Source of the DNA: Chryseobacterium sp. JV274
GTDB taxonomy: Bacteria; Bacteroidota; Bacteroidia; Flavobacteriales; Weeksellaceae
Length of the DNA: 64,000 nucleotides
Assembly: GCF_903969135.1 (NCBI RefSeq)
Contig: NZ_LR824569.1
Location: 5,163,722 to 5,227,721 of the forward strand
Direction: 5' to 3'
Below, piece after piece: positions 6,949 to 14,934 of the stretch. Each line of letters opens with the position of its first letter. The first letter of the stretch is position 1. The notes beneath the pieces are model-generated. The model did not search any database. It saw only the letters and a program-made list of their open reading frames with translations, and was not told where the DNA came from. The position numbers and the translations under genes are program-made.

Positions 6949-7875
6949 ATGAAAGGAAAAATCATTAAATCTACAGGCAGCTGGTACCAGGTTTTGGAAT
7001 TGGAAACAAATAAAATTTTCGAGGCCAGAATCAGGGGGAAATTCAAATTAATAAAAACAAGGCTTACCAATCCACTTGCTGTAGGAGATTTTGTTGAGTT
7101 TCAACTGGAGCAGGATGATATTGCCTGGATCACGAAAATTGAGCCACGCTCCAATTATCTGATCAGAAAATCAGTAAACCTTTCAAAAGAAGCCCATATT
7201 ATCGCTTCCAATATTAATTTAGCGTGCTTTATCTTTACCCTGAAACATCCTGAAACATCTTTAGGATTTCTTGACAGATTTTTGGCATGCTGTGAAGCCT
7301 ATAATATTACTCCTTTGATTCTTTTTAATAAGATTGATGTTCTCCAGGGGGAAGAAATAGAAATTGTGAAAGATGTCGAGTTTCTCTACCAGGAAATTGG
7401 ATATAACACATTGGAAATTTCATCTTATTCAAGACTGAATCTAGATCAGTTGCAGGAAATCCTTAAAGATAGAACTTCAGTGTTCTTCGGACACTCCGGT
7501 TGTGGGAAATCTACTTTAGTAAATGCTTTGCAGCCAGGACTGAATTTGAAAACATCTGAAATTTCAGACACCCATCTGAAAGGAAAGCATACAACAACTT
7601 TTGCACAGATGCACTTCTGGGATTTTGGCGGAAATGTTATCGACACCCCTGGAGTTCGTGAATTTGCAATGATCGATATTGAAAAAGAAGAAGTACAGCA
7701 TTACTTCCCTGAGATTTTCAAAAAGAGAGAAGAGTGCAAATTTCACAATTGCCTTCACATTAATGAGCCGAAATGTGCTGTTCTTGATGCCCTTGAAACA
7801 GGCGAAATACAACATTCGCGCTATTCTACGTACATTAAATTGATGGATGAGGCGGAAGAAGCTTCTCAGAAATAA
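6949..7875 (+). CDS. rsgA: Ribosome small-subunit-dependent GTPase A
   Basis: 308-aa YjeQ/RsgA, which helps late maturation of the 30S subunit. It has an N-terminal OB-fold (about 1-70) and a circularly permuted GTPase domain in the expected order: G4 FNKID, then G1 GHSGCGKST at 181-189, G3 DTPG. The C-terminal zinc site is C263-x4-C268-x-H270-x5-C276. All hallmark residues are present. It is transcribed alone from the box just upstream. Confidence 0.95.
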   Translation: MKGKIIKSTGSWYQVLELETNKIFEARIRGKFKLIKTRLTNPLAVGDFVEFQLEQDDIAWITKIEPRSNYLIRKSVNLSKEAHIIASNINLACFIFTLKHPETSLGFLDRFLACCEAYNITPLILFNKIDVLQGEEIEIVKDVEFLYQEIGYNTLEISSYSRLNLDQLQEILKDRTSVFFGHSGCGKSTLVNALQPGLNLKTSEISDTHLKGKHTTTFAQMHFWDFGGNVIDTPGVREFAMIDIEKEEVQHYFPEIFKKREECKFHNCLHINEPKCAVLDALETGEIQHSRYSTYIKLMDEAEEASQK

Positions 7876-8067
7876 CCATATCAATTTCTATACTATTATA
7901 ACCACTGCAGATTAATTCGGACAATCTGTACAGATTCTATTGCTGTCATTTTAGTATAATATTTCTCAAATATTATTTTTTAATGTTCAAATTTAACATT
8001 CTTACTAATGGTCTGTTTTTTTTGATTTGTTTTTTCTAAATTTTAACGAAAAAAATCTCTTTTTTAT

Positions 8068-8121
8068 ATAACTCTACTTTTTGGCATAACAAATTTGGCA
8101 GATAACTCCACTTTTGGCATA
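8068..8121. repeat. Imperfect tandem direct repeat with TTTGGCA motifs
   Basis: ATAACTCTACTTTTTGGCATA (8068-8088, one T longer) and ATAACTCCACTTTTGGCATA (8102-8121) are spaced 34 bp start to start. A third TTTGGCA lies between them at about 8095. Regular spacing near three helical turns suggests a protein-binding array, but no regulator can be named. Confidence 0.5.
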
Positions 8122-8262
8122 TTTTAGTTTAGTGAGAAAATAATTTTCTGGAAAATCCGATTGTTTTAATAATTGAAATAAAAGCAATAATACTATTAAA
8201 TTTACTTTTATTTAGCTATTTAAAATGTTGAATTGATAAAAAATGGCATTGTTTTTTGAAAA

Positions 8263-8342
8263 TAAAAAACCCAGCCGAAGCTGGGTAAAAACTAATAACC
8301 ATGAAAACTCAAATTAAACATGAGAATCGCAGTAGAATAAAC
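8263..8342 (-). ncRNA. Candidate small RNA with intrinsic terminator
   Basis: On the minus strand, GTTTTT is followed by ACCCAGC, loop TTCG, GCTGGGT (8286-8269) and TTTTTT, a textbook terminator. About 60-70 nt upstream lies TTGGCAC-N5-TTGT (8356-8341), whose GG-to-G spacing of 12 fits a sigma-54 -24/-12 promoter. The RNA would run from about 8330 to 8263. It includes a 9-codon ORF (ATG to TAG) that may be chance. No protein gene explains the terminator. Confidence 0.4.
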
Positions 8343-8357
8343 AATTACTGTGCCAAA
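8340..8357 (-). promoter_or_regulatory. Sigma-54-like -24/-12 element
   Basis: Minus-strand TTGGCAC (8356-8350) and TTGT (8344-8341) keep the exact 12-base step between the invariant GG and the G of the -12 box; only the final C of TTGC is replaced by T. It lies directly upstream of the terminator-ended candidate RNA. Confidence 0.35.
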
Positions 8358-8434
8358 GATTGGTTCATAATTTCTTAATAAAAGTTATTTTTATGTTAAA
8401 AAAAAATTAAAATAAAAATCAAAGATATTTTTTG

Positions 8435-8442
8435 TAATTTTG
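8435..8442 (+). promoter_or_regulatory. Putative -7 box of ndk (TAATTTTG)
   Basis: Exact TAnnTTTG, 23 bp before the ndk ATG. The -33 region is A-rich without a clear TTTG. Confidence 0.5.
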
Positions 8443-8465
8443 CGCCATTAAAAAAATATACATTT

Positions 8466-8882
8466 ATGTCTAACATTACATTCACTATGATTAAGCCTGA
8501 TGCAGTTGCTGACGGACATATCGGTGCTATATTGGGTAAGATTGCTGAAGGAGGTTTTAAAATCAAAGCTTTAAAATTAACTCAGCTTACAGTTGCTGAT
8601 GCAAAAAAATTCTATGAAGTACACGCTGAAAGACCATTTTATGGTGAGTTGGTAGAATTCATGAGCTCTGGTCCTATCGTGGCTGCAGTTTTAGAAAAAG
8701 ATAATGCAGTTGAAGACTTCAGAACATTAATTGGTGCTACTAACCCTGCAGAAGCTGCAGAAGGTACAATCAGAAAAATGTTTGCAAGAAGCATCGGAGA
8801 AAATGCTGTTCACGGTTCAGATTCTAACGAGAATGCATTAATCGAAGCTCAGTTCCATTTTTCAGGAAGAGAGATTTTCTAA
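8466..8882 (+). CDS. ndk: Nucleoside diphosphate kinase
   Basis: 138 residues, the normal length. It passes the gamma-phosphate of ATP to other NDPs through phosphohistidine H116 in NAVHGSDS, next to the conserved SxxNA segment. Start [10 protein letters not shown] and mid-part [15 protein letters not shown] are typical. A strong terminator follows. Confidence 0.97.
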
Positions 8883-8905
8883 GAAATCATCTTACAAAAT
8901 AAAAG

Positions 8906-8937
8906 ATCCGGAGAGAATTCTCCGGATTTTGTTTTTT
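8906..8937. terminator. Bidirectional terminator between ndk and fucosidase
   Basis: ATCCGGAGA (8906-8914) and TCTCCGGAT (8919-8927) form a 9-bp stem with a 4-nt loop, then TTTGTTTTTT. The opposite strand also has a T-rich tail, so it serves both convergent genes. Confidence 0.9.
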
Positions 8938-8954
8938 ATGATATTCAACGCTTA

Positions 8955-10802
8955 TTAAAGATTGTTTTCAATAGCACCCACATTTTCTCTGTAAAGTTCA
9001 ATAGGCTTATTGAGTAAAACAGCAATGACAGTCATCTGCTTATCCAGCTTTTCCTTTGGAATATCAATATAAATAATTCCCGGTCTGTCACTCCAGTAAA
9101 GTTTATTATATATCGTATGTGACAGCATAGTGCCTTCGCCTACCACTCTTATTCTGGCAATTCCGTTTTTTATTCCTTTTAAGGCAATTGGACCTGTAGG
9201 GGTTCCTTCCACAAAAAGATAAAGTGTCTGTTTATCTTTTGACAATGCACTTATTCCTGAATAGTGGCCATCTGGTAATCCTTTTTCAGTTTCATAAAGT
9301 GCCTCCGCATGCTTACTTATCCATTGCAGAGTTTCCTGATTGGTGTTGGGTGTTGTCTTGATTTTCATATCGAGACCATCACTGGTCAGCCCTGAAGAGG
9401 TCGGCAGATTATAACCATTATATAGTGTATTGGCTATAGTATAGGCCGCTTCCTGTGTGTTTTTATTACCCATGATTTCAGCGAGAGAGTGATTTTCCTT
9501 TTTAAAATCTTTCAGAAATACAGGCGGAGTATCAAAAGTAAGTTCTACAACGGTGACGTCTTTATCAAATTTCACATTGGAAAAATTCAATGTGAGTGTT
9601 TTTTCAGCGTTGTAATCTGTTTTGATAATAGCTGAAGGATCTCCTATTATTTTTGCTGAAGCAGGTTTTGTTTCCAATCCATAAATCTTTGCGAAGTTTT
9701 TGGCTTCCTCCAGGTAAAGGAATAAGGATTTTTTTGAGGTAGATAAAGAAGATTTTCCTTTATAATTTTCAAAAGGAATTCCACGGGTTGTTTCATAAAT
9801 GGCGTGCTGGTTTTTAGAGGTCCATCGGCCAAGGTTTTTCAGAATTTCCACTTGCTCCTCGGGAATTGTACCATCTGATCTGGGTCCGATATCAAGCAGA
9901 AGATTTCCTCCCATACTGATAACATCTGCCAGCGTTCTTACGATCATATTAGGTGTTTTATAGCTTTTATCATAAGGCTGATATCCCCAGGAATCATTCA
10001 TGGTATAACAAAGCTCCCAGTATGGATTTTGTGGTGGAACGACCGGAATTCCCTGTTCAGGAGTGTCATAATCCCCATGATTGTTGAGCCTTGAATTGAT
10101 GATGATATTTGAATTGTATTTCTTGAGCAGATCCAGAGTCTGAGAAGCTTTCCATTCCTCAGAAGTATGTTCCCAGTCTCCATCAAACCAAAGAAGGTCA
10201 GGGGAGTACTGAGAGGAAAGTTCATTAAGCTGGCTTTGATAGTAACTGATGAAATTCTGCCATCGTTTCGGATCGTTTTTTATTTCGTATCGCTTTTTTG
10301 TCCGCGTATTGATATCATAATAGGGATGGCTCCAATCCGGCAAGGAGAAGTAAAGCCCTGTTTTTAATCCGGAATTTTTCAAAGCAGAAATAAAAGGACT
10401 TAGAACATTTTTTTTGGCCAAAGACTGTCCGGGAATTGTGATCGCTTTTTCAGCCTTAGAGTTCCACAATGAAACCCCGTCATGATGTTTGGTCGTAATA
10501 ACAGCGTATTTTGCTCCGGATTCTTTAATAAGGTTTACCCACTGTTCAGGCTGATATTTTGAAGCTGAAAAACCATTCAGCTGTTTCATGTAATTTTCGT
10601 GATTGATATAATTGTTGAAAAATGACCATGATTCAGATATTCCATTTACGGAGTAGATTCCCCAATGAATAAAAATACCCAGTTTGGCATTTTTAAACCA
10701 TTCCATTTTCTTGCTGTTGTCAACTGTTTGAACCTGTGCATTGGTATTATAAGCAGATAACACCAACCCAAGGAAAACAGCTTTAATCAGACTGCTTTTC
10801 AT
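8955..10802 (-). CDS. Secreted alpha-L-fucosidase (GH29)
   Basis: 615 residues from the ATG at 10802, chosen because it begins a signal peptide (MKSSLIKAVFLGLVLSAYN, cleavage near NAQ). The frame stays open to 10874, but that extension has no secretion signal. Family features: FIHWGIYSV, TKHHDG, nucleophile region WFDGDW with D207, and GGNLLLDIGPRSDGTIP. The last ~200 residues hold beta-rich modules of a type seen in many GH29. It removes alpha-linked fucose from glycans, probably in the periplasm. It stands alone, outside the polysaccharide locus at the other end of the window. Confidence 0.92.
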   Translation of the reverse strand: MKSSLIKAVFLGLVLSAYNTNAQVQTVDNSKKMEWFKNAKLGIFIHWGIYSVNGISESWSFFNNYINHENYMKQLNGFSASKYQPEQWVNLIKESGAKYAVITTKHHDGVSLWNSKAEKAITIPGQSLAKKNVLSPFISALKNSGLKTGLYFSLPDWSHPYYDINTRTKKRYEIKNDPKRWQNFISYYQSQLNELSSQYSPDLLWFDGDWEHTSEEWKASQTLDLLKKYNSNIIINSRLNNHGDYDTPEQGIPVVPPQNPYWELCYTMNDSWGYQPYDKSYKTPNMIVRTLADVISMGGNLLLDIGPRSDGTIPEEQVEILKNLGRWTSKNQHAIYETTRGIPFENYKGKSSLSTSKKSLFLYLEEAKNFAKIYGLETKPASAKIIGDPSAIIKTDYNAEKTLTLNFSNVKFDKDVTVVELTFDTPPVFLKDFKKENHSLAEIMGNKNTQEAAYTIANTLYNGYNLPTSSGLTSDGLDMKIKTTPNTNQETLQWISKHAEALYETEKGLPDGHYSGISALSKDKQTLYLFVEGTPTGPIALKGIKNGIARIRVVGEGTMLSHTIYNKLYWSDRPGIIYIDIPKEKLDKQMTVIAVLLNKPIELYRENVGAIENNL

Positions 10803-11035
10803 ATATAGTTTTATTTTACCATTAAATATAAATAAAGAAAGCATTACCGCAATAATATCTTGAGATTTACTCATAATTATTATCAGAGCGTCTCCTTTAT
10901 TATTGTATTTTTATGATTTAAACTAAAAATTAAAATAAAACCATCTCCATATAATTTGAACTTAAAATAAAAGGTTGAATATATTGGACGAGATAAATGG
11001 AACGTTTATTGTAAATTTTATTTGAAAAAGCAATT

Positions 11036-11257
11036 ATGAAAATTCCAGCAATATTAATGGCGAGTTTATTAGCAGTAGGAGCTTCTGCACAAAGCACTAA
11101 ACCTGAAACTAGAACTAAAAAGCCTGTAAAAAAAGTAAAGAAAGCAACAGCACCCGATACTGTTGAAAAGAAAAAACCGGGAACTCCTAAGTCAATCGTA
11201 AAAAAAGATACGCTTGTTCTTCGTGGCCATGGCTGCCCGGCTTGTGGAATGGGATAA
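11036..11257 (+). CDS. Secreted RiPP-type precursor peptide with C-terminal CPACGMG
   Basis: 73 residues: a signal peptide (1-18, ASA before Gln), a Lys/Thr/Pro-rich middle (20-58), and a short tail LRGHGCPACGMG at the very end with the only cysteines, C67 and C70. The next gene, 3 bp downstream, is a DUF692/MNIO enzyme. MNIOs modify cysteines in precursor peptides, and from memory the Chryseobacterium ChrA/ChrH system acts on a similar Cys-containing C-terminal segment. The pair therefore fits a RiPP whose C-terminal Cys motif is rebuilt. An export signal on the precursor is typical of the bufferin-like branch tied to metal handling. The product itself is unknown. Confidence 0.75.
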   Translation: MKIPAILMASLLAVGASAQSTKPETRTKKPVKKVKKATAPDTVEKKKPGTPKSIVKKDTLVLRGHGCPACGMG

Positions 11258-11260
11258 AAG

Positions 11261-12358
11261 ATGAAAAAACCACTATTAGGAATATCAATGATGGCAGAAG
11301 CTGATTTTGTTTCTGCTGTTTTGCCGTTGCTGCAGAACAACACTATTGATGTTCTGGAATGGTCCTTTGATACCCTTTATCATGCCAATGAACCGGATTG
11401 GCTTCGTGATCTGCTAAACTTTTATGCAGAAAATAACCGTTTGATAGGCCATGGTGTTTATTATTCCCTGTTTGATGCAAGATGGACAGAAAGGCAGGAA
11501 GATTGGCTGAAAAAGCTAAAAGAAGAAGTCGGCTTAAGGAAATACAATCATATCACGGAACATTTTGGTTTCATGAATACTGAAAACTTTCATCAGGGAG
11601 TACCATTGCCGGTATCTCTGCATCCCAAAACTTTACAAATAGGAAAAGACAGGCTGTACAGGCTTCAGGAGACGATAGATATTCCTGTAGGTATAGAAAA
11701 TTTAGCGTTTTCATTTTCTATTGATGATGTCAAAGAACAAGGGATTTTTCTTGATAAACTAACGGAGGATACCAATGGCTTTCTGATTCTCGATCTTCAT
11801 AATATTTATTGTCAATCCTGTAATTTTGGAGTGAAAATGCAGGAAATAATTGATCTGTACCCTTTGGATAAGGTAAAAGAGATTCATCTTTCCGGAGGAA
11901 GCTGGCAGGAGAGTGTATATGGGAAAAAGCAGGTGAGAAGAGATACCCATGATGATATTATTCCCGAAGAGATTTTTTCTGTTTTGCCTTCCGTTTTAGC
12001 AAAGTGTCAAAATCTGGAATATATTATTACCGAAAGGCTGGGGCATACGCTGAAAACAGAAGAGGAAAAAGAAAATTTCCTGAATGATTTCAATAAAATT
12101 AAAACAATAATCGAAGCTTCTGATTGGAAAGGAAGAAAAATAAGCAGTTGGAACAAGCGGCAAATACAACTTCCGGAGAAACCTGTCGAAGATCTGGCTT
12201 TGTTTGAAGAGCAGTCAAGGCTTACCAGACTTCTTTTTGACAATGCGGGAGCAGCAGTTATCAAAGATCAGGATTTTCATTACTTTAAAACAGAGAACTG
12301 GGATCCTGAAATGATTCTTACTGCCCAGAATATTATCAAAAAATGGAATCCTTATTAA
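11261..12358 (+). CDS. MNIO (DUF692) peptide-modifying iron enzyme with C-terminal extension
   Basis: 365 residues. About 1-275 form the DUF692 TIM barrel with its metal-binding motifs: GHGVYYS, ITEHFGF, GIENLAF, LDLHNIYCQ, EIHLSGG, DTHDDIIPEE and the final ITERLGH. MNIOs carry two or three irons and oxidise cysteine-containing peptides. Residues ~285-365 are an extra domain (EEQSRLTRLLFDNAG...) that may recognise the leader, a task usually done by a separate partner protein; no separate partner gene is next to it. The 3-bp gap to the precursor gene points to one transcript. Family is sure; exact chemistry is not. Confidence 0.85.
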   Translation: MKKPLLGISMMAEADFVSAVLPLLQNNTIDVLEWSFDTLYHANEPDWLRDLLNFYAENNRLIGHGVYYSLFDARWTERQEDWLKKLKEEVGLRKYNHITEHFGFMNTENFHQGVPLPVSLHPKTLQIGKDRLYRLQETIDIPVGIENLAFSFSIDDVKEQGIFLDKLTEDTNGFLILDLHNIYCQSCNFGVKMQEIIDLYPLDKVKEIHLSGGSWQESVYGKKQVRRDTHDDIIPEEIFSVLPSVLAKCQNLEYIITERLGHTLKTEEEKENFLNDFNKIKTIIEASDWKGRKISSWNKRQIQLPEKPVEDLALFEEQSRLTRLLFDNAGAAVIKDQDFHYFKTENWDPEMILTAQNIIKKWNPY

Positions 12359-12387
12359 TTCTATCCTGATAACCAAAATCAAAATAT

Positions 12388-12879
12388 ATGAAAATGACAA
12401 CACTAGTATTGATCATTACCGCTGTCCTCACTGCTCTGATAGGAGGACTTTTCTATGCTTATTCATGTTCTGTAGTCCTTGGACTGGGAAAACTCTCTGA
12501 TGTAGAATATCTGAAAGCTATGCAGAACATCAACCGGGAAATTCTGAACCCTGTTTTCTTCATGAGTTTTATGGGAACAGCGGCTTTTCTGCCGGTATCT
12601 GTCTTTTTGTTCCGCGGACATCAGTCTGTTTTTATCTTTCTCCTGCTGGCTGCACTGGCCTATCTGATTGGGGTTTTTGGAGTGACGGTTGCGGGGAATG
12701 TTCCGATGAATGACGCACTGGATAAGTTTGATATTTCCAATTCTACAACGGAAGCCATCAGGCAGATGCGCGCTAATTTTGAAAACAGATGGAATTTTCT
12801 GAATAATATAAGAACCGTTTTCTCTGTTATTTCTATCATTTTTGTAGTCTGTGCCTGTATCTGGAATAAGGAGGTGTAA
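12388..12879 (+). CDS. DUF1772-type small membrane protein
   Basis: 163 residues with about four transmembrane helices and a soluble loop (DKFDISNSTTEAIRQMRANFENRWNFLNNIRT) typical of the DUF1772/anthrone-oxygenase-like family. It starts 29 bp after the MNIO gene on the same strand, so it may belong to that operon, though the family also occurs alone in many genomes. No enzymatic role can be assigned. Confidence 0.7.
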   Translation: MKMTTLVLIITAVLTALIGGLFYAYSCSVVLGLGKLSDVEYLKAMQNINREILNPVFFMSFMGTAAFLPVSVFLFRGHQSVFIFLLLAALAYLIGVFGVTVAGNVPMNDALDKFDISNSTTEAIRQMRANFENRWNFLNNIRTVFSVISIIFVVCACIWNKEV

Positions 12880-13045: not shown

Positions 13046-13076
13046 AAAAGGCAGCCATTGGCTGCCTTTTGTTTTT
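13046..13076. terminator. Bidirectional terminator
   Basis: AAAAGGCAGCC and GGCTGCCTTTT form an 11-bp stem with a 3-nt loop between the convergent DUF1772 and rpe genes; it is followed by GTTTTT on the plus strand and an A/T-rich tail on the other. Confidence 0.9.
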
Positions 13077-13092
13077 ATAATAAAGATAATTA

Positions 13093-13743
13093 TTAAATCT
13101 TTAGAAGTTCAATCGTTCTCTCAGGGCTTTCTGCTGAGAAAACAGCATTTCCTGCCACAAGTACATCAGCTCCGGCTTCAAAAAGTTTAGAAGCGTTGTC
13201 AAGGTTCACTCCACCGTCTATTTCAATAAGGGCTGTAGAGTTGTTGCTTAAGATTAGGTCTTTGGTTTCAGCAATTTTTTTGTAAGTATTTTCAATGAAT
13301 TTCTGTCCTCCAAACCCTGGATTTACACTCATTAACAATACCAGATCCACATCTGCAATGATGTCTTCAAGCATTAATACCGGAGTAGAAGGGTTCAAAA
13401 CAACACCTGCTTTTACTCCTTTGCTCTGAATGTGATGAATGGTTCTGTGAAGGTGAGTACATGCTTCATAATGTACTGAAATAAGGTCTGCACCATGATT
13501 GATAAATTCATCAACATATTTCTCAGGCTCCACAATCATCAGGTGAACATCTACAAATTTTTTGGCATGCTGCTGAACAGTTTTCATTACCGGAAAACCA
13601 AATGAAATATTGGGTACAAAACGGCCGTCCATTACATCAATGTGGAACCAGTCGGCCTGGGAATTGTTCAGCATTTCAATGTCTCTTTGCAGATTCCCAA
13701 AGTCTGCAGATAAAAGGGATGGAGCAATAAGCTTCGTTTTCAT
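13093..13743 (-). CDS. rpe: Ribulose-phosphate 3-epimerase
   Basis: 216 residues, full length. It interconverts ribulose-5-phosphate and xylulose-5-phosphate in the pentose phosphate pathway. Motifs: FHIDVMDGRFVPNISFG, VDVHLMI, VNPGFGGQ, and the phosphate-binding EIDGGV...GADVLVAGNAVF. It probably has its own promoter, because the upstream M42 gene is separated by 117 bp that hold an imperfect inverted repeat (GAATCAAGA at 13773-13781 with TCTTGATTC at 13850-13858). Confidence 0.96.
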   Translation of the reverse strand: MKTKLIAPSLLSADFGNLQRDIEMLNNSQADWFHIDVMDGRFVPNISFGFPVMKTVQQHAKKFVDVHLMIVEPEKYVDEFINHGADLISVHYEACTHLHRTIHHIQSKGVKAGVVLNPSTPVLMLEDIIADVDLVLLMSVNPGFGGQKFIENTYKKIAETKDLILSNNSTALIEIDGGVNLDNASKLFEAGADVLVAGNAVFSAESPERTIELLKI

Positions 13744-13860: not shown

Positions 13861-14934
13861 TTAATGATACTTCAGTTTCATTTCCGGTTTGATCTTAAGA
13901 ACGGTTTCGTAGATAAGTTTAATCACATTCCCTACATCTTCTTTGGACACCATTTCTACCGTAGTATGCATATAACGCAAAGGTAAGGAAATTAACGCAC
14001 TTGGTACTCCGCCATTAGAATGAGCAAAAGCATCTGTATCAGTTCCTGTAGCTCTGCTTGCTGCTGCTCTTTGGAAAGGAATTTTTTTAACTTTTGCTGT
14101 GTCAATAATCAATTCTCTGATGGTATGGTGAACACTTGGCGCAAAGAATACTACCGGTCCTGCACCACATTTCTGATCTCCTTCTTTCTTCTTTTCAATC
14201 ATCGGAGTGGTAGTGTCATGGGTAACATCCGTTACAATAGCAATATTCGGTTTGATGGTGTCAGCGATCATATCTGCGCCGTATAAACCTACTTCTTCCT
14301 GTACAGAATTGGTAATATAAAGTCCGAATGGAATAGATTTTTTATTTTCTTTCAAAAGTCTTGCTACTTCTGCAATCATGAAACCTCCGATTCTGTTGTC
14401 CAACGCTCTGCAGACAAAATATCTGTCGTTCATTTCAAAGAACTCGTCCGGGTAAGTAATCATACATCCTACAAAGATTCCCATTTCTTCCACTTCTTTT
14501 TTGGAAGTAGCACCACAGTCGATGAAGATATTTTCAATTTTAGGAGTAGGCTCATTCTGATTCGTTCTCGTATGAATAGCCGGCCATCCGAATACTCCTT
14601 TTACAATTCCGTTTTCTCCGTGAATATGAACCACTTTTGAAGGGGCAATCGTCTGATCGGAACCTCCGTTTCTGATGACATAGATTAATCCGTCATCTGT
14701 AATATAATTGATGTACCATGAAATTTCATCAGCATGTGCTTCAATCACTACTTTAAATTCAGCTTCCGGGTTGATGATCCCATAACAGGTACCATAATGG
14801 TCTACTTCTATTGTGTCAACATAGGGTCTGATATAGTCCATCCAGACTTCTTGTCCTTTATGTTCGTAACCTGTTGGAGATGATGTGTTTAAATATTTTT
14901 CTAAAAATTTCAAAGATTTCTTTTCAAATTTCAT
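13861..14934 (-). CDS. M42 family metallo-aminopeptidase
   Basis: 357 residues, a cytoplasmic two-metal aminopeptidase related to FrvX/CelM/PepA-type TET enzymes. Visible metal and catalytic motifs: IEAHADEISW, CRALDNRIGGF, VQEEVGLYGA (catalytic and ligand glutamates), VTDVTHDT, and the late histidine in LPLRYMHTTVEMV. No signal peptide. It likely trims short peptides. Its start lies 51 bp from the divergent DUF4294 gene. Confidence 0.93.
   Translation of the reverse strand: MKFEKKSLKFLEKYLNTSSPTGYEHKGQEVWMDYIRPYVDTIEVDHYGTCYGIINPEAEFKVVIEAHADEISWYINYITDDGLIYVIRNGGSDQTIAPSKVVHIHGENGIVKGVFGWPAIHTRTNQNEPTPKIENIFIDCGATSKKEVEEMGIFVGCMITYPDEFFEMNDRYFVCRALDNRIGGFMIAEVARLLKENKKSIPFGLYITNSVQEEVGLYGADMIADTIKPNIAIVTDVTHDTTTPMIEKKKEGDQKCGAGPVVFFAPSVHHTIRELIIDTAKVKKIPFQRAAASRATGTDTDAFAHSNGGVPSALISLPLRYMHTTVEMVSKEDVGNVIKLIYETVLKIKPEMKLKYH

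Follow-up and report, generated by a model that had tools for sequence, protein, structure and literature searches.

Chryseobasin genes chrA-chrH-chrI in a Chryseobacterium genome: a suggested two-gene core, a separable ChrI and a conserved promoter-like element

Introduction

The closest described system to the locus presented here is the chryseobasin RiPP cluster chrAHI. Its chemistry, established on a Chryseobacterium ChrH, consists of a macrocycle, an imidazolidinedione and an S-methyl group, and that paper leaves open the final product and the biological role of chryseobasin (PMC10214503). ChrI was named there as the partner of ChrH, and the first co-expression needed it (PMC10214503). 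According to a 2025 preprint, ChrH still modifies ChrA without ChrI, giving +10 Da (PMC12636315), and a review calls ChrI dispensable (PMC12452194).

Two further types share features with chryseobasin. The DybA/DybH type of other Bacteroidota has a CPxCGxG tail, a fused C-terminal domain on the enzyme and the same macrocycle chemistry; it differs in that DybA is a lipoprotein with a lipobox Cys and that the product of DybH is unmethylated (-4 Da) (PMC12636315). DybH, with its domain fused, is active without any partner, and a 7-residue motif is enough for it (PMC12636315). The mel type of Cyanobacteria resembles chryseobasin in its CPACGMG tail and in needing the C-terminal domain, which is a helical bundle in ChrH; there, however, the domain is a separate protein, MelHc, and the precursor exceeds 30 kDa (PMC12636315).

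Results and Discussion

Layout and identity of the locus

The window analysed here, 64 kb in length, is the final part of a 5.2-Mb single-contig genome (G000:C1:5163722-5227721). The genes in question run in the order rsgA, ndk, a divergent fucosidase-type gene, chrA-chrH-chrI, rpe and an M42 peptidase gene (Table 1). Since ChrA, ChrH and ChrI all exceed their NCBIfam equivalog cut-offs, the locus is almost certainly the chryseobasin RiPP cluster. It shares with the published cluster the gene order, the CPACGMG tail, the C-terminal extension of ChrH, a DUF1772 ChrI, and rpe and an M42 gene next door (PMC10214503). The window nevertheless stems from another species or strain, its ChrH being 72% identical (264/365) to a protein ascribed to Chryseobacterium sp. 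JM1. We take JM1 to be the IW22 strain studied for chryseobasin. A search for MNIO genes in the whole genome gives one match and no second copy.

The cluster itself is already known. What the comparison adds is that chrA and chrH probably form the core, that ChrI can be separated from them, that two neighbouring genes are probably bystanders, and that a promoter-like element is strongly conserved. With gaps of only 3 nt between chrA and chrH and 29 nt between chrH and chrI, one transcript is likely for all three genes. The hairpin beyond chrI belongs to a scan in which 4 terminator-like sites were found, against 1.7 expected. The fucosidase-type gene on the other flank adjoins the chr cassette often, not always, in the compared loci.

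A sequence-only reading of this DNA had described an exported precursor whose two cysteines both lie in CPACGMG, immediately followed by a DUF692/MNIO enzyme with a C-terminal extension and then by a DUF1772 membrane protein. Coordinates and composition agree with that description, and the extension amounts to about 100 residues beyond the Pfam model. Its statement that no separate partner is adjacent was mistaken, as the DUF1772 protein is ChrI. It recognised, correctly, a ChrA/ChrH-type RiPP locus with an export signal, but treated it as a relative of the chryseobasin system: the three equivalog matches make it chryseobasin itself.

Table 1. Features at the chryseobasin locus (positions within the window)
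Feature	Coordinates	Strand	Evidence
alpha-L-fucosidase-type gene, divergent flank	8955..10874	-	PF01120
candidate promoter element TGGAACGTTTATTGTAA, sigma-54-like -24/-12 spacing (GG-N10-GT)	10998..11014	+	putative sigma-54 identity, from spacing
chrA, chryseobasin precursor, 73 aa	11036..11257	+	NF050124 119.1 bits, cut-off 50
chrH, MNIO (DUF692) maturase, 365 aa	11261..12358	+	NF050165 713.1 bits, cut-off 600; PF05114
ChrH C-terminal domain, about residues 281-365	12101..12355	+	9 invariant columns in a 24-row alignment reaching DybH-type enzymes
chrI, DUF1772/Anthrone_oxy membrane protein, 163 aa	12388..12879	+	NF050162 321.6 bits, cut-off 275; PF08592 63.1 bits
terminator-like 11-pair hairpin between chrI and rpe, listed in both directions	13046..13070	.	
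rpe (ribulose-phosphate 3-epimerase), published name chrE	13093..13743	-	PF00834 265.1 bits
M42 peptidase, published name chrP	13861..14934	-	PF05343 243 bits

The precursor and its expected modification

ChrA consists of a signal peptide (about residues 1-18, with cleavage placed by eye between GASA and QST), a variable Lys-rich middle and the C-terminal CPACGMG. An SPI signal has been noted on ChrA (PMC12636315). Over 21 loci from a set of 32 with chrA, mean pairwise identity is 0.97 in the last 7 residues, 0.81 in residues 1-19 and 0.58 in the Lys-rich middle. Against the DybA-type family NF050125 the window's ChrA scores 16.6 bits, below the cut-off of 40, and it has no lipobox Cys.

By analogy with the published chemistry (PMC10214503), ChrH, an MNIO-family iron enzyme that includes its own C-terminal helical domain, would act on the last seven residues of ChrA. 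With O2 and SAM it would link the sulfur of the first Cys to what had been the beta-carbon of the second. The carbonyl of the second Cys would become part of an imidazolidinedione, a five-membered ring placed between Gly and Met, and S-methylation would bring the net change to +10 Da. The signal peptide would then take the modified peptide to the periplasm or beyond, presumably unlipidated because a lipobox Cys is absent. In this scheme chrA and chrH would carry the core function, ChrI would be an accessory membrane protein, and transcription of chrAHI may start from a sigma-54 promoter at the element listed in Table 1.

Several minor points concern the precursor genes. The ChrA signal (11036-11092 in the window) shows an identity of 0.81 against 0.63 for the fucosidase signal over 21 loci, one fucosidase row being partial; the signal of a DUF4294 neighbour reaches 0.89 in the same 21 loci, so that of ChrA is not better conserved than that one. 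A start resembling MKLSKxLLxAI, similar to that of ChrA, is common to many distant DybA-type precursors. Three of the 90 chrA genes are odd, two ending early in frame (L390 and L406, the latter from the 75% complete genome G160) and one having CPAYGMG in place of CPACGMG (L395).

chrA and chrH as the core

The distribution of the three genes was followed in 173 genomes of the genus, the window's own included, where chrA is over its cut-off in 90, chrH in 88 and chrI in 98. Every one of the 88 chrH genomes also has chrA, and in the two extra chrA genomes (G116, and G160) chrH is in pieces. On these sequence comparisons, the functional core is suggested to be chrA plus chrH. Together, chrH and chrI occur in 78 of the 173 genomes, among them one (G075) with a stop inside chrI. 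Ten genomes have chrH without chrI over its cut-off (G035, G070, G094, G106, G135, G142, G143, G144, G168 and G177); in G168 a contig ends at the site, and G070 holds a chrI remnant. The reverse, chrI without chrH over its cut-off, is seen in 20 genomes, namely G116 and 19 others in which no trace of chrH was seen. Among the same-genus relatives chrH is over its cut-off in 19 of 35, in addition to the window's own genome. A quick tree of 62 loci, partly picked as exceptions and offering few independent pairs, requires at least 6 changes for chrH and 8 for chrI.

A promoter-like element before chrA

The element GGAA-N3-T-N2-TTG(T/C) lies shortly upstream of chrA, and its form in the window, TGGAACGTTTATTGTAA, occurs there once, against 0.00 expected. 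In each of the 90 chrA genomes the 70 nt ahead of the ATG contain a match to GG-N8-TTG(C/T); its GG is 34-49 nt away from the chrA ATG, and 35-37 nt away in 64 of them. The search pattern itself demands the GG, the TTG and the final C/T; beyond it, two A after the GG and one T are invariant in 90/90, the common form being TGGAAyryTTATTGTAA. In single-base shuffled 70-nt stretches the pattern appeared in 154 of 18000 trials. Between 4 and 60 nt upstream of the GG no column exceeds 1.3 bits, versus 2.0 for the invariant columns; values of 1.5-1.8 bits occur in some columns beside the element and close to the ATG. At the -12 position T stands in 76 of the 90 and C in 14, and GG-N10-G(T/C) is present in all of them.

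A GG and a G(C/T) ten bases apart are the layout of sigma-54 promoters, whose consensus is given as TGGCAC-N5-7-TTGCT (PMC12316311). We lean slightly towards a sigma-54 promoter at the element, one that may drive chrAHI. The genome has one rpoN and eight PF00158 matches, of which three are strong enhancer-binding proteins (genome positions 26580, 4155309 and 2835198) and the other five are weak matches. In F. psychrophilum, three proteins with this domain are likewise predicted, and the genes attributed to sigma-54 there cover chaperones, envelope stress, gliding and exported proteins (PMC9723704).

It is quite possible, although we would put it at somewhat under an even chance, that the element is instead an operator or a promoter of another type. 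The consensus C at -12 is, after all, replaced by T in 76 of the 90 genomes, and the sigma-54 reading gained no support from a check across the genome. A relaxed motif, TGGMAYNNNNNTTGYW, has 59 sites genome-wide versus 32 for the reversed pattern. Thirty sites from each set were placed relative to ORFs, with orientation uncorrected: 9/30 motif and 6/30 reversed-control sites lay between ORFs, and 1 motif site versus 3 reversed sites also had an ORF start close by. Over all 59 sites, with orientation corrected and no control, 6 are intergenic with an ORF start 16-160 nt downstream, that of chrA included. An intergenic enrichment of the relaxed motif is hence not clear in this genome, and a genome-wide sigma-54 regulon derived from it was rejected; the region upstream of groES, taken as an internal control for its sigma-54 dependence in F. 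psychrophilum, has no match to it. Nevertheless, the occurrence of the pattern in the last 70 nt before chrA in every chrA genome, together with the invariant two A and one T, speaks for the sigma-54 promoter, as do the presence of rpoN with three strong activators and the service of sigma-54 to envelope stress and exported proteins, again with three activators, in F. psychrophilum (PMC9723704). It should also be noted that a scan for E. coli-like promoters finds a sigma-70-type match (9 of 12) before chrA, at 10956-10985.

In 19/19 loci that have chrI only, the element is absent from the 150 nt upstream of chrI. Extending the sigma-54 promoter to the biology of the peptide, chryseobasin may be a sigma-54-controlled exported peptide, with an enhancer-binding protein activating the core of chrA and chrH, perhaps alongside the flavobacterial envelope-stress or surface regulon, while chrE and chrP stand outside and ChrI is an independent membrane protein that shares the site. 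We hold this fuller picture tentatively, at just short of an even chance. If true, it would be the first handle on when, and hence why, the peptide is made; and should the operon depend on sigma-54, its inducing condition could be traced directly by way of rpoN and the three strong candidates for an activator. A thin literature search found no mention of sigma-54 control of chryseobasin: PMC12636315 has 'sigma' only as a supplier name, none of the papers searched mentions MNIO together with sigma54, and Chryseobacterium is not mentioned among the matches listed for sigma54/RpoN literature.

Two further upstream sequences are of note. By eye, four loci (L063, L066, L071 and L138) have a perfect palindrome, TGATAATTGTTATCA, about 30 nt upstream of the element; it is absent from the window. 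In L323, TGGCACATTTATTGTT closely resembles a sigma-54 site, has T at -12 and is situated 66 nt before an ORF that by eye resembles an exported barrel protein.

ChrI as a separable module

In all 19 loci with chrI only (L079; L150-L167), chrI occupies the same slot directly before rpe. These 19 copies share 58 invariant columns with 22 copies beside chrH, and their median dN/dS is 0.14, from only 16 usable pairs, the corresponding value beside chrH being 0.084 (42 pairs). The chrI-only copies therefore look selected. A quick ChrI tree largely separates copies that have chrH beside them from those that do not (3 changes versus 13.8 in shuffles), and for this reason the chrI-only pattern does not simply represent scattered recent losses of chrAH. 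Judged from these comparisons, ChrI is a separable module in evolution, probably an accessory membrane protein that serves a purpose of its own besides.

The view that ChrH catalysis strictly depends on ChrI as a partner draws on its requirement in the first co-expression (PMC10214503) and on its presence over cut-off in 78 of the 88 chrH genomes, one of them (G075) with an internal stop; the largely separate tree groups (3 changes) may also mean that chrI has specialised in two settings. We consider it unlikely, as 10 of the 88 chrH genomes lack chrI over its cut-off, one of these at a contig end, 20 genomes retain chrI over cut-off without an intact chrH, and the 19 chrI-only copies, with their shared columns, are apparently under selection. 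The +10 Da obtained in the absence of ChrI (PMC12636315) points the same way, towards an accessory role. In L149, from G075, the premature stop lies in chrI while chrA and chrH are intact, which would be a recent loss of ChrI or a sequencing error.

rpe and the M42 peptidase as probable bystanders

The gene order rpe then M42 is the same in 33/33 examined loci without chrH. This set combines 15 of the 16 chrH-less relatives, fetched via M42, with 18 chrI-only loci fetched via chrI; the 15 test the presence and order of rpe only, and G021, having no M42 match, was left out. In one of the loci, L080, an oxazolin-type cluster is inserted between rpe and M42, the order being otherwise kept. Both genes also change slowly, with a mean pN of 0.031 for rpe and 0.028 for M42 (62 loci each), whereas chrH reaches 0.185 over 30 loci and chrA 0.225 over 32; the locus sets differ by gene, L145 and L147 having been dropped for chrH, and L138 and L149 for chrI. 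Given the conserved order and the slow change, rpe and the M42 gene are, on sequence grounds, judged to be flanking housekeeping genes that probably stand outside the pathway.

A five-gene cluster, in which epimerisation by ChrE and proteolysis by ChrP finish the product as the 2023 paper supposes, we regard as quite improbable. Both genes were given chr names (PMC10214503), and both lie downstream of the chr genes in 20/20 chrH loci of a first set, the window included, and in 9/12 of a second, the other three being cut by a contig end (L145), without a flank gene (L144) or with neither gene in the available stretch (L146); recruitment of a housekeeping enzyme onto the peptide would, moreover, be compatible with the synteny. 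However, the order is identical where chrH is lacking, the M42 gene is present in 34/35 same-genus relatives, and the two genes are on the opposite strand, beyond the bidirectionally listed hairpin. If they are indeed bystanders, efforts to finish the product with them are misdirected.

ChrH and its C-terminal domain

The NF050165 match spans positions 1-363 of ChrH, whereas Pfam MbnB_TglH_ChrH (PF05114) covers residues 48-259 and leaves the C-terminal extension outside. The nearest PDB sequences to ChrH are DUF692 proteins (8hci, E 5e-15; 3bww, E 9e-7). Ten residues, H64, H97, E100, E146, D178, H180, H209, D228, H230 and E258, are invariant in 49/49 rows; by analogy and from general knowledge of the family, we take them to be candidate iron ligands.

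The extension is standard for ChrH. In an alignment of ChrH and DybH types, its positions L34, Q38, L41, L45, W67, T74, A75, K81 and W82 are invariant, and over 20 loci it evolves faster than the rest of ChrH (identity 0.58 versus 0.77). The sequence-only reading had suggested that the extension does the job of a partner. That it matters agrees with the published view, MelHc being required where the domain is detached (PMC12636315), but by sequence no likeness to an MNIO partner of the HvfC type emerged: as a degenerate HvfC-type partner the domain was rejected, with an hhalign probability of 0.1% against a two-protein HvfC-type alignment. The idea on the extension was accordingly close to what has been published, and the idea of a missing partner was wrong. 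Searched by sequence against the PDB, the domain has its best match at E 0.57, to an unrelated regulator. A search for stand-alone proteins of the domain gave 30 matches, 25 of them from assemblies whose longest contig is under 5 kb, probably fragments.

That the locus is a new RiPP system, its extension replacing a missing partner and its product a metal-binding periplasmic peptide, is very improbable. In its favour are the conservation of the extension, the need for its detached counterpart in the mel cluster (PMC12636315) and the signal peptide of the precursor. Against it, all three proteins are equivalogs of named chr genes with ChrI adjacent, no part of ChrA varies more than its Lys-rich middle, no support was seen for a metal-binding product, and as a methanobactin, bufferin or oxazolin maturase ChrH scores far under the cut-offs (MbnB 25.4 of 325, BufB 86.7 of 310 and HvfB 65.2 of 360).

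Wider family and neighbouring MNIO systems

The ChrH model reaches E 1e-30 or better in 6 of 395 evenly drawn genomes of the phylum, the window's own included, with 3 over the cut-off. A distant set was formed from the best 80 of 298 Bacteroidota loci retrieved with a DybH-type alignment. Within 1.5 kb upstream of the enzyme, 78 of these 80 have an ORF ending in C-x-x-C-G-x-x; CPACGMG closes 52 of the distant precursors, and a loose pattern finds a lipobox-like stretch in 63. Precursor and enzyme are thus conserved together across genomes, both here and in the 88/88 chrH genomes with chrA, and the pairing is not due to chance. The DybA/DybH type further departs from chryseobasin in having no obvious partner gene, and the sigma-54-like element is found in the 150 nt before only 5 of the 78 distant precursors.

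The oxazolin HvfABC type, present in the relatives L080, L092 and L094, is like chryseobasin in making an exported peptide matured by an MNIO enzyme. It is unlike it in its EGKCG-type repeats, its HvfC-type partner and its 277-279-aa enzyme without the C-terminal domain. In L080 (from G009, which is without chrH), the cluster occupies 7501-9843 between rpe and M42 and comprises an HvfB-family MNIO (382.7 bits, cut-off 360), an oxazolin-type peptide with a KCGExKCG domain (22.7, cut-off 19.5) and an HvfC-like partner at 109.7 bits, below its cut-off of 142. Presumably a DoxX-like protein belongs to it as well. Oxazolin-type clusters are also found elsewhere in L094 and, by eye, in L092.
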